From NCBI RefSeq assembly GCF_900070365.1, contig NZ_LN850107.1, forward strand, positions 992,001 to 1,056,000: a stretch of 64,000 bases of DNA. The letters run 5' to 3'. Both the position numbers and the translations under genes were made by a program. The DNA is from Alloactinosynnema sp. L-07 (GTDB lineage Bacteria > Actinomycetota > Actinomycetes > Mycobacteriales > Pseudonocardiaceae). How positions within the stretch are numbered: position 1 is the stretch's first letter; the number at the start of each line of letters is the position of its first letter. Under the pieces are notes generated by a model. It had not been told where the DNA came from, ran no database searches, and was given only the letters and a program-made list of their open reading frames with translations. This document shows, piece by piece, positions 58,562 through 64,000 of the stretch.

Positions 58562-59977
58562 ATGACGGATTCGGTGCAGTCGGAATCCAATCCGAATGGT
58601 GTCGCGCCGCAGTTGAGCCTCGGCACCGCGGCCGCGCGCAACCTCGCGACCACGACCAAGTCCGTCCCGCAGATGCAGGGGATCACCTCCCGCTGGCTGC
58701 TCAAGCTGCTGCCGTGGGTCCAGGTCTCCGGCGGCGCCTACCGGGTCAACCGCAGGCTCAGCTACACCGTCGGCGACGGCCGGGTCACCTTCACCCACAC
58801 CGGCGCGGACTTCCGGGTCATCCCGCAGGAACTGCGCGAGTTGCAGCTGCTGCACGACTTCGACGACGAAGAGGTGCTGGCCGCGCTCGCGGGCCGGTTC
58901 GTGCAGCAGGAGTACGCGCCCGGCGACGTCCTCGTGGCCGCGGGCAGCCCGGCCGACCAGGTCGTGCTCATCGCGCACGGCAAGGTGAACAAGATCGGCG
59001 CGGGCGAGTACGACGACGAGACCGTGCTGGAGACCCTCGCCGACGGCGACCACTTCACCTACCAGGCGATCATCGAGGACGACGACCACTGGGAGTACAC
59101 CGTCAAGGCGGTCACCTCCTGCACCGTGCTGTCGCTGTCGCAGAGCTCGTTCGAGGACCTGATCGCCCAGTCCGACGCGCTGGCCGCGCACGTGGCGCGG
59201 TTCCGGGACAACCCGGCCCGAGCGCAGAACTCCCATGGCGAGGCCGCCATCGAGGTCGCCTCCGGCCACGCGGGCGAACTGGACCTGCCGGGCACCTTCG
59301 TCGACTACGAGACCACCCCGCGCGAGTACGAGCTGAGCGTCGCCCAGACCGTACTGCGGGTGCACTCCCGGGTGTCCGACCTCTACAACGACCCGATGAA
59401 CCAGGTCGAGCAGCAGCTACGCCTGACCGTCGAGGCGCTGCGCGAGCGCCAGGAATACGAGATCGTCAACAACCGCGACTTCGGCCTGCTGCACAACGCC
59501 TTCCCCAAGCAGCGCATCCACACCCGCAGTGGCCCGCCGACCCCGGACGACATGGACGAGCTGCTGGCCCTGGTGTGGAAGGAACCAGCGTTCTTCATCG
59601 CCCACCCCAAGGCCATCGCAGCCTTCGGTCACGAGTGCACCAAGCGCGGGATCTACCCGAGCAGCGTCGACCTTGACGGGCACCGCGTGCCGTCCTGGCG
59701 CGGCGTGCCGCTGTTCCCGTGCAACAAGATCCCGGTGACGGACACCCGCACCAGCTCGATCATGCTGATGCGGACCGGCGAGCAGACCCAGGGTGTCGTC
59801 GGGCTGCACCAGATCGGTCTGCCCGACGAGTACCAGCCCGGCCTCAACGTCCGGTTCATGGGCATGAACGAGAAGGCGATCATCTCCTACCTGGTCAGCG
59901 CCTACTACTCCGCCGCCGTGCTCGTCCCCGACGCGCTGGGCGTCCTGGAGAGCGTCCAAATCGGACTCGAAGGCTGA
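58562..59977 (+). CDS. Family 2B encapsulin shell protein with cNMP-binding-like insert, copy 1
   Basis: Predicted 471 residues from ATG 58562; in-frame starts at 58508, 58541 and 58556 are possible, and none has a good ribosome binding site. It has the HK97-type shell protein sequence of Family 2 encapsulins, with N-terminal [20 protein letters not shown] and a C-terminal end [21 protein letters not shown] cyclic-nucleotide-binding-like domain occupies ~100-215. In it the phosphate-cassette region reads [10 protein letters not shown], lacking the FGE core, so cAMP binding is doubtful. Family 2B shells enclose terpene-synthase cargo. It is adjacent to geosmin synthase and paired with a second, divergent shell gene. 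Confidence 0.92.
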
Positions 59978-59984
59978 GTTGACG

Positions 59985-62192
59985 ATGCAGCAGGCATTCA
60001 CGCTGCCCGACTTCTATGTCGCCTACCCGGCGCGGCTCAACCCGAATCTCGAAGCCACCCGGGCGCACAGCATGGCGTGGGCGAAGGACATGGGCATGCT
60101 CGACGCGCCCAAACCCGGCGGCGGCGTTGTGTGGGACGAGGCGGCGCTGGCCGGGATGGACTACGCGCTCATGTGCGCCTACACCCATCCCGACTGCGAC
60201 GGGCCGACCCTGGACCTCATCACCGACTGGTATGTCTGGGTCTTCTTCTTCGACGACCACTTCCTCGAACAGTTCAAGTACTCCCGCGACCTCAAGGGCG
60301 CGCGGGAATACCTGGACAACCTCGAACGGTTCATGACCAGGACCGGTCAGACCCCGCCTAAGCCGGGCAACCCGGCCGAGGCGGGCCTGCTCGACCTCTG
60401 GGCGCGCACGGTGCCCGCGATGTCGGACGCGTGGCGCGAGCGGTTCATCACCAGCACCCACAACCTGATGGTCGAGTCGATGTGGGAGCTGGACAACATC
60501 GACAAGGGCCGCATCGCCAACCCGATCGAGTACATCCAGATGCGCCGCCGGGTCGGTGGCGCCCCGTGGTCGGCCAACCTGGTCGAGTTCGCCGCGCACG
60601 CGGAGATCCCGACGGCGATCGCGCACAGCAGGCCGCTGCGGGTGCTGTCGGACACCTTCTCCGACGCGGTGCACCTGCGCAACGACCTGTTCTCCTACGA
60701 GCGCGAGGTCCAGCGGGAAGGTGAGAACTCCAACGCTGTCCTGGTGTTCGAGAAGTTCCTCGGTCTGTCCACTCAGGACGCCGCAGAGCTGACCAACGAG
60801 CTGCTGACCTCCCGGCTGCACCAGTTCGAGACCACCGCGCTGGTCGAGGTGCCCGCACTGCTGGCCGAGAACGCCGTACCGCCGCACGAGCAGCTCGCGG
60901 TCGGGCTGTATGTGAAGGGCCTGCAGGACTGGCAGGCGGGCGGACACGAGTGGCACGCCAAGTCCAGCCGGTACATGAACCAGGGGCCCGTCTCGGGAAC
61001 CGGGACTGTCCTAGGTGGACCGACGGGTCTCGGCACGTTCTCGCTGTCGCCCGCCGCGCTGGGCCTGACCCGCCGCTCGGCGCAGTTCTCACATGTGCCG
61101 TTCGCCCAGGTCGGGCACCTGCCGCTGCCCGAGTTCCACATGCCATACCCGGTGCGGACCAGCCCGCACCTGGCCCAGGCCAGGATCAACGCCGCCGAGT
61201 GGGCCGAGCGGATGGGGTTCTTCGGCGAGGGCGTGTGGAACCGGGAGAAGTTCCTCGGCTATGACCTGGTCCACTGCGCGGCCATGATCCACGCCGACTC
61301 CGGAGCCGACCAGCTCGACCTGTCCGGCGACTGGCTGACGTGGGGCACCTACGGCGACGACTACTACCCGGTCGTCTTCGGCGCCCGGCGCGACCTGGCC
61401 GCGGCCAAGGCGACCACCGCGCGGTTCTCGCTGTTCATGCCGCTGGACGCGGGCGCGACGCCCGAGCCGGTGACCCCGTTGGACCGCGGCCTCGCCGACC
61501 TGTGGCGCCGCACGGCCGGGCCGATGTCGGGCCACTCGCGGCAGGTGTTCCGCACCGCGGTCGAGGACATGCTCAACAGCTGGGTGTGGGAGCTGGAGAA
61601 CCAGATCCACAACCGGGTCCCGGACCCGGTCGACTACATCGAGATGCGGCGCAAGACCTTCGGCTCGGACCTGACCGCGGCCCTGGCCCGGCTCGCGCAC
61701 TCCGACGACGTGGCCCCCGAGCTGTACCAGAACCGGGTGCTGCACGAACTCGACACCGCGGCGCAGGACTACGCGTGCTTCACCAACGACCTCTTCTCCT
61801 ATCAGAAGGAGATCCAGTACGAGGGCGAACTGCACAACATGGTCCTGGTCGTGGAGAAGTTCCTCGGCATCGACCGGATGGCCGCGCGCGACGTGGTCGC
61901 CGACCTGATGAACGACCGGATGCGGCAGTTCCAGCAGATCGCCGACCACGACCTGCCCGCCATGCTCGCCGAGTTCGCCATCGCCGAGCCGACCCGGTCG
62001 ATTCTGCTCCAGCACGCCGAGGACCTGAAGGAGTGGATGTCGGGGATCTTGGAGTGGCATCGCACCGTCGCGCGTTACGGCGAGGCCGATCTCCGCCGCC
62101 ACAGCACGCCCACGCCGCCCACCATCCCGTTCGGACCCACGGGCCTTGGCACCTCGGCGGCCCGTCTGGTCGCCCAGCTCGCCTCGCGCTGA
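59985..62192 (+). CDS. geoA: Geosmin synthase (germacradienol/geosmin synthase), two-domain
   Basis: Predicted 735 residues from ATG 59985; TTG 59979 would add two. The N-terminal domain (1-~330), which converts farnesyl diphosphate to germacradienol, has the metal motif DDHFLE at 90-95 and [11 protein letters not shown]. The C-terminal domain (~370-705), which completes conversion to geosmin, has GTYGDDYYP and [11 protein letters not shown]. Sequence and length match Streptomyces geosmin synthase throughout. Unusually, GPTGLGT occurs at 345-351 (linker) and again at 717-723 (tail, followed by SAARLVAQL). The gene sits 7 bp after shell gene 1 and 30 bp before shell gene 2, so the enzyme is probably encapsulated cargo. 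Confidence 0.96.
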
Positions 62193-63607: not shown

Positions 63608-63608
63608 C

Positions 63609-64000
63609 ATGACCACCATCAACGACGCCACCGCGGCCCGGTCGGCCACCGACGTGCTCGCCGCGTGCCGGGACCTCGGCACGCCCGCGCTTCGGGCCGC
63701 GGTGGACTCCATGCCGGGGTCGATGCGGCACATCACCGGCTACCACCTCGGCTGGTGGGACGCCGACGGCGAGCCCACCGACGCCGACAGCGGCAAGGCG
63801 CTGCGGCCCGCGCTGGTGCTGTGCGCGGCCGAGGCCGTCGGCGGTGACCCAGCCGAGGCGATCCCGGCCGCGGTGGCCGTCGAGCTGGTGCACAACTTCT
63901 CGCTGCTGCACGACGACGTGATCGACGGCGACCTGACTCGGCGCCACCGGCCTACCGCGTGGACAGTGTTCGGCACCAGCGCGGCGATCCTGGCCGGGGA
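63609..64000 (+). CDS. Polyprenyl diphosphate synthase, 3'-truncated by window edge
   Basis: The first ~130 residues of an E-type polyprenyl synthase. The first Asp-rich motif is DDVID at 102-106 in NFSLLHDDVIDGDLTRRHRPT, preceded by the substrate segment GKALRPALVL. It should condense isopentenyl with allylic diphosphates, making farnesyl or geranylgeranyl diphosphate; the product length cannot be read from the visible part. ATG 63609 is 1 bp after the shell gene stop, so it is in the same operon. Prenyl synthases are known cargo or partners of Family 2B encapsulins. No GPTGLGT-like motif is seen in the visible part. Confidence 0.93.
   Translation, partial: MTTINDATAARSATDVLAACRDLGTPALRAAVDSMPGSMRHITGYHLGWWDADGEPTDADSGKALRPALVLCAAEAVGGDPAEAIPAAVAVELVHNFSLLHDDVIDGDLTRRHRPTAWTVFGTSAAILAG

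Follow-up and report, generated by a model that had tools for sequence, protein, structure and literature searches.

Comparison With Described Encapsulin Systems

Two-component Family 2B encapsulins have been described in operons of a terpene cyclase and a prenyltransferase (TC/PT operons), in which the cyclase gene is located between the genes of two shell proteins, Enc1 and Enc2, and the prenyltransferase (PT) gene is located downstream (PMC12407261). Geosmin-synthase-like cargo, its 11-residue motif (hereafter, the tag) and two-shell operons were described in a 2021 survey (PMC8346489). Enc1 of Streptomyces lydicus alone formed no shells, and Enc1 and Enc2 mixed with all interfaces (PMC12407261). 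The locus studied here lies in a 64,000-nucleotide stretch of the genome of Alloactinosynnema sp. L-07 (contig NZ_LN850107.1, positions 992,001 to 1,056,000; hereafter, the window). The gene order was Enc1, geosmin synthase, Enc2 and prenyl diphosphate synthase, all on the + strand, with intergenic gaps of 7 bp (1 bp if the synthase starts at TTG 59979), 29 bp and 1 bp. As in the described TC/PT operons, the cyclase was placed between Enc1 and Enc2, PT followed directly after Enc2, the shells were distinguished by motif 1 (VWK versus RRRK) and carried a cyclic-nucleotide-binding-like domain (CBD) insertion, and the tag was present in a geosmin-synthase-like cyclase (PMC12407261, PMC8346489). 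The disordered N-terminus of 50-100 residues described for the prenyl synthase of such operons, by contrast, was not found in the window enzyme. Moreover, the lineage of the window synthase differed from that of the other sampled loci in which a synthase is bracketed by shell genes.

The presence of a two-shell geosmin synthase operon is confirmed, and the operon is of a known type. A preliminary description of this DNA had read two distinct Family 2B shells around a complete geosmin synthase, with a prenyl synthase as the next gene, a single direction and gaps of 1-30 bp, and each of these points was borne out. The same description held such a pairing to be much less described in actinobacteria, which is not supported, because the type is already covered by PMC8346489, by PMC12407261 and by the NCBI names, which label many close synthases as encapsulin cargo. 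The word "geosmin" was absent from the main text of PMC12407261. Experiments on geosmin synthase packaging were not found in the open-access literature, with subscription papers and preprints mostly outside the search. The same gene order was found again in other genera of the host's family when loci were compared; hence, the arrangement is not due to chance. The locus itself is one more TC/PT two-component encapsulin, with a geosmin synthase. The new observations are the genome-wide co-occurrence of synthase and shell despite mostly unlinked synthase genes, the occurrence of the tag in the disordered linker and C-terminal segment of the synthase as well as its retention in unlinked synthases, the resemblance of the tag to the N-terminal arm (N-arm) of the shell, and a single gene order that holds at least two synthase lineages.

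The entries 9bhu, 9bhv and 9bi0 were taken to be the S. griseus-type 2-methylisoborneol (2-MIB) synthase encapsulin, which reportedly has one shell protein and a single-domain cyclase with an N-terminal loading domain. The window shares with this system a Family 2B shell and a terpene cyclase as cargo (putative in the window), and differs from it in two shells and a two-domain cyclase that is tagged in a loop and at the C-terminus. In cyanobacteria, an operon of geoA followed by two cyclic-nucleotide-binding (cnb) genes of 471 and 469 aa has been described (PMC7251104), and shells named from Nodularia, Anabaena and Nostoc were 71-72% identical to Enc2 over 99%, both of which support the suspected link between the present locus and cyanobacterial geosmin operons. 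Encapsulins were reported in all geosmin clusters of a myxobacterial study (PMC12224551). Unlike in the window, the synthase of the Microcoleus operon stands before the two cnb genes and not between them (PMC7251104), and no prenyl synthase is mentioned in the excerpts on the cyanobacterial and myxobacterial operons (PMC7251104, PMC12224551). The Family 2A cysteine desulfurase encapsulin resembles the window system in its HK97 shell, disordered cargo-loading region and N-arm, whereas it has no CBD and its cargo motifs, LARLANEFFS and AASPYYFLDG, differ from the tag (PMC8049743).

Shell Proteins Enc1 and Enc2

Enc1 was located at 58562..59977 (+ strand, ATG 58562) and Enc2 at 62222..63607 (+ strand, GTG 62222). 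In the NCBIfam profile search, the scores of Enc1 and Enc2 on the Family 2B shell model NF041163 were 789.8 and 780.5 bits, respectively, against a cut-off of 400 bits. The SrpI-like HK97 domain PF19307 was found in both shells (464.1 and 462.8 bits), and a cyclic-nucleotide (cNMP)-binding-like insertion, PF00027, preceded the C-terminal part at residues 134-221 of Enc1 (489-aa frame) and 109-196 of Enc2. Both shells were homologous over their whole length to solved 2B shells. Among the solved chains, Enc1 was closest to 9bje (691.4 bits), followed by 9bix (666.3), whereas Enc2 was closest to 9bix (658 bits), followed by 9bje (623.9); the values for 9bhu were 643.7 and 654.7 bits for Enc1 and Enc2, respectively. 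The 9bje sequence contains TVWK and AVDFHGHSLP, which are motifs printed for S. lydicus Enc1 (PMC12407261). Motif 1 was ALVWKEP in Enc1 (containing LVWK) and SRRRKSR in Enc2 (containing the diagnostic RRRK), and the window therefore holds, within 10 kb, two different shell genes with the Enc1 and Enc2 forms of this motif. The identity between the two shells was 69%.

The Trp at position 177 of Enc1 was almost invariant among 37 aligned shells, at a place where cyclic-nucleotide domains normally have Arg. The cNMP-binding-like domains of such shells bind no cyclic nucleotide (PMC12407261). The N-arm residues L20, T22, A24, A25, R26 and L28 (Enc1 numbering) were invariant among 37 shells. Most Enc1-type and Enc2-type shells were placed on separate sides of a 92-shell tree, and the exceptions were the Nocardiopsis-like loci and L197/L198, in each of which both types stood together. 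Within the Nocardiopsis-like loci (L096, L100, L101, L107, L112 and L113), Enc1-type and Enc2-type shells clustered with a support of 100, pointing to gene conversion or duplication in that lineage.

Geosmin Synthase and Its Tags

The germacradienol/geosmin synthase, the putative cargo, was located at 59985..62192 (+ strand; ATG 59985 or TTG 59979; 735-737 aa). Two PF19086 (Terpene_syn_C_2) stretches represented two class I cyclase domains, and the score against the solved germacradienol/geosmin synthase 5dw7 was 486 bits. The closest synthase (88%) came from a metagenome-assembled genome named as Actinokineospora. The AlphaFold model of the synthase had a mean pLDDT of 84.5 and a pTM of 0.83, with values below 50 only at residues 1-3, 333-360 and 709-735. 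Both tags were situated within these disordered segments of the model: the linker tag GPTGLGT at residues 345-351 (61017..61037, + strand) in segment 333-360, and the 11-residue C-terminal tag at residues 717-727 (62133..62165, + strand) in segment 709-735. The window synthase therefore carries GPTGLGT(SAAR) both between its domains and at its C-terminus. Among 33 synthases of 68-88% identity, G345, P346, G348 and G350 of the linker tag were invariant or nearly so, P718, G720, G722, T723 and R727 of the C-terminal tag were invariant, and the tag residues matched the catalytic residues in invariance. Among 120 database synthases, P.G[LI]GT was present in both places in 92, in one place in 27 and in neither in 1. 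The motif had already been proposed as a targeting sequence in geosmin-synthase-like cargo (PMC8346489), and this paper was the sole match for GPTGLGT in the open-access literature search. The tag also recurred in the 2-MIB synthases of several loci.

The tag was surveyed over 197 loci with an alignment-based split of the synthases and a 1%-shuffle threshold; several genomes occurred twice among the loci (196 rows, 187 different). At least one tag was detected in 47 of the 49 synthases that lie between shell genes or no more than 10 kb from one and in 140 of the 145 synthases without a shell gene in the surrounding stretch examined. The profile was seeded from bracketed loci, which makes the bracketed counts partly circular but not the unlinked ones. 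The proposal that the tag is exclusive to shell-linked synthases was rejected by these counts. For the unlinked synthases of a second genus (Streptomyces-like, g8), the tail tag was missing in 14 of 35 and the linker tag was present in 26 of 35.

Likeness of the Tag to the Shell N-Arm

The tag GPTGLGT(SAAR) resembles the shell arm motif SLGTAAAR, which was assigned from the shell alignment at residues 19-26 of Enc1 (58616..58639, + strand), where it was the top match of the cargo-tag profile, and from sequence and shell alignment at residues 12-19 of Enc2 (62255..62278, + strand). With a profile of 164 distinct tag strings, 88 of 92 shells had their best match among the first 60 residues, as had 113 of 120 in a second shell set. 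As a control for the 92 shells, other stretches equalled the score in 20 of 3336 comparisons. When the profile columns were permuted (40 shells), as many N-terminal best matches were obtained in 6 of 500 profiles, and as high a score in 0 of 500. The likeness was noticed after the fact, and three points speak against it: all the shells belong to one family, which brings the counts close to a single comparison; shells whose arms read SLST or SLTT had low or negative absolute scores; and the P-x-G of the tag has no counterpart in the arm. Some protomers have an ordered Enc1 arm and others lack it, and the Enc2 arm was not resolved in the structure (PMC12407261). This may leave a site for a mimic, and since the tag resembles the arm, it may dock where the arm docks. 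The proposed tag and its likeness to the arm offer a direct test of how a Family 2B shell chooses its cargo.

Co-occurrence and Linkage of Synthase and Shell Genes

The co-occurrence counts of the host's family were combined by hand, and linkage and within-genus tallies were made by eye. In an even sample of the phylum (396 genomes), 15 genomes carried the synthase. A full-length 2B shell was found in all 15 and in 1 of the 381 others (G236). Three more phylum genomes gave matches of the C-terminal half only (339-350 bits; one of them, G150, reaches the cut-off with its neighbours), and these were taken as 2A-like. In the host's family, the synthase was present in 195 of 297 genomes, 188 of which were tested, and the 2B shell was found in 185 of the 188 (65/65, 66/67 and 53/55 in three batches, plus the own genome); four of the 188 (G402, G535, G633 and G647) were synthase-positive only through a copy with a diverged second domain. 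Shell matches were obtained in 6 of the 102 synthase-free family genomes, two of them (G444 and G549) as pieces. The Fisher p values, which ignore relatedness, were 3e-26 and 4e-65 for the phylum and the family, respectively. Furthermore, all seven genera of the family with mixed states had a higher shell share in synthase-bearing than in synthase-free genomes (sign test, 0.008): g239, 9/9 versus 1/2; g261, 3/3 versus 0/9; g262, 19/20 versus 0/2; g263, 13/13 versus 1/6; g268, 4/4 versus 0/2; g270, 1/1 versus 0/6; and g274, 1/1 versus 0/1. In g8, the synthase was present in 118 of 121 genomes, and the shell in 115 of 115 tested synthase-bearing genomes and in 1 of 3 synthase-free genomes.

The shell was located within 10 kb of the synthase in 12 of the 57 family genomes with listed places (a batch of 65, 8 of which were without a listed synthase place), and the other 45 were unlinked. 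The corresponding values were 6 of 115 in g8, with the other 109 unlinked, and 0 of 15 among congeners. Two Enc types were present in every bracketed locus seen, and most of the synthases examined were unlinked to shells. These results suggest joint inheritance of geosmin synthases and 2B shells, including where the two genes are far apart. Coupling without linkage is a prediction of packaging in trans, and a shared lifestyle would give the same. Both geoA and the eshA-mib operon of Streptomyces are bldM-dependent, through different direct regulators (PMC8549240).

Prenyl Diphosphate Synthase

The polyprenyl (isoprenyl) diphosphate synthase gene crosses the end of the window, at 63609..64000 on the + strand and onward to window-equivalent 64649 (L005:6610-7650). 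When the sequence was read past 64000, as had been advised earlier, the gene was completed, giving 346 aa from ATG 63609 (to L005:7650). The product matched PF00348 and scored 480.5 bits on NF041169, the encapsulin prenyl synthase cargo model, above its cut-off of 450. The residues ahead of the model start numbered 13 from ATG 63609 and at most 24 from GTG 63576, whereas the described prenyl synthase cargo has a disordered N-terminus of 50-100 residues (PMC8346489). Among 44 prenyl synthases of such loci, a Met was present 7-20 residues before the model start in 38, and the remaining 6 perhaps have GTG or TTG starts; longer upstream open frames leave other starts possible in most of the 44. 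The geranylgeranyl diphosphate (GGPP) synthase model (IdsB) gave 333.5 bits and the farnesyl diphosphate (FPP) synthase model 154.7, both below cut-off, and a C20 product is more likely than a C15 product. Three congener loci (L176, L177 and L180) had the order Enc1–Enc2–PT with no geosmin synthase there. As judged from the sequence, the prenyl synthase is part of the shell operon and probably not loaded via the known kind of N-terminal domain.

Proposed Packaging and Alternative Explanations

The locus is likely to encode a mixed Enc1/Enc2 shell with the geosmin synthase as tag-loaded cargo. Enc1 and Enc2 would co-assemble, as the characterized S. lydicus pair does, and the synthase would be loaded by its two GPTGLGT(SAAR) copies, in the inter-domain loop and at the C-terminus, with the tag possibly docking at the docking site of the shell N-arm. 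FPP would enter from the cytosol via the shell pores, germacradienol would be kept close to the second active site, and geosmin would leave. In favour of this proposal stand the shell types, the gene order and gaps, the near-invariant tag in two disordered segments and the coupling of synthase and shell across genomes. Several observations weigh against it. AlphaFold modelled Enc1 with low confidence (pLDDT 52.9, pTM 0.36); hence, the HK97 fold is assigned by sequence homology. On NF041168 (full model), the encapsulin cargo terpene cyclase model, the synthase scored 1169.5, which is 30 bits below the curated cut-off of 1200; many of its unlinked relatives are likewise just below it. The tag alone is no proof of packaging, because it is equally present in linked and unlinked synthases, and it was carried by the synthases of three genomes in which no 2B shell was detected (G536, G643 and G661; 3/3), where the shell may have been lost or missed through gaps in the assembly, or the tag may have another role. 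Finally, relatedness confounds the co-occurrence, with 11 of the 15 synthase-bearing phylum genomes in one genus.

The synthase may instead be a mere neighbour of shells that package something else, with co-inheritance arising from a sporulation or aerial-growth lifestyle. The low linkage (45/57 family genomes and 109/115 g8 genomes unlinked) agrees with this explanation, as do the frequent position of shells beside other genes, e.g., 2-MIB synthase or prenyl synthase, and the developmental control of both geoA and the 2-MIB operon in Streptomyces (PMC8549240). Lifestyle, however, does not account for the invariance of the tag within segments that are otherwise disordered, for its reappearance in the 2-MIB synthases of several loci, or for the placement of two synthase lineages between shells, and the explanation is considered quite improbable. 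Even more doubtful is the formation of two separate homomeric shells, one for the synthase and one for the prenyl synthase. The two Enc types of every bracketed locus seen would fit such a division, which was left possible by the 2021 survey (PMC8346489), but S. lydicus Enc1 forms no shells on its own and mixes with Enc2 (PMC12407261), the window Enc1 is of that type, and the prenyl synthase is without the described cargo domain.

Co-packaging of the prenyl synthase as the supplier of FPP to the synthase was also weighed, and it appears unlikely. The 1 bp gap and direct adjacency to Enc2 argue for it, and NF041169 names the prenyl synthase family as cargo; the short stretch of no more than 24 residues ahead of the model, the Met at 7-20 residues in 38 of 44 prenyl synthases of such loci, and the higher score of the GGPP-type model over the FPP-type argue against it. 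The suggestion of the preliminary description that one compartment unites FPP supply and cyclization is weakened by the short N-terminus, the GGPP-type score, and the occurrence of PT beside shells without a synthase in the three congener loci.

The packaging of the geosmin synthase in a mixed shell might extend beyond this locus. It is tentatively proposed, as a possibility held with less than even confidence, that geosmin in Actinomycetota is generally made inside 2B encapsulins and that the unlinked synthases of other genomes are loaded in trans into shells whose genes lie at other sites, via a self-mimicking tag, L-G-T-x-A-x-R, that copies the shell arm and docks at the arm site. In this joint proposal, the shells would come from 2-MIB, prenyl-synthase or stand-alone loci, and the window operon would be the case in which cargo and shells are also neighbours. 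Geosmin is the smell of wet earth, a volatile known for more than 100 years. If the unlinked synthases are also cargo, geosmin would be made in a protein organelle across soil actinobacteria generally, and surveys of neighbouring genes would miss most of the system.

Synthase Lineages and Variant Loci

The window synthase was the sole bracketed member of a 73-sequence set that had 100% support in a tree of 196 synthases. Shared descent of the window synthase with the other bracketed synthases was rejected by the approximately unbiased (AU) test (p 5.9e-06), as was shared descent with the unlinked synthases of congeners (p 4.2e-06; 30 rows in both), for groups that were picked after the tree and with P0121 and P0122 assigned to the bracket group indirectly. 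From both rejections, it follows that one and the same gene order occurs with at least two lineages of the synthase, which reflects either separate assembly or synthase replacement.

Variants of the arrangement were observed in other genomes. L197 had the order Enc1, geosmin synthase, 2-MIB synthase, geranyl diphosphate (GPP) methyltransferase, Enc2 and PT. In L289-L293 (genus g244), the bracketed enzyme had a first domain 62-65% and a diverged second domain 28-32% identical to the window synthase. The metal motifs of this second domain were changed (three translations read), PTGLGT or PSGLGT was kept, and the domain was sometimes a separate frame; four of the genomes were without a complete synthase at E 1e-100. 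G407 and G447 had three geosmin synthase matches each, one shell-bracketed and the others unlinked.

The host genome (7,405,112 bases, one contig) contained four 2B shells, i.e., the window pair and a pair in a 2-MIB locus. This second two-shell locus (L007:693-5943; genome 1084692-1089942) lies approximately 28 kb beyond the prenyl synthase. The 2-MIB synthase, GPP methyltransferase and Enc1-type shell genes are on the same strand, and the Enc2-type shell gene is divergent. The 2-MIB synthase of this locus carries a weakened tag, NPTSLGMSAV.

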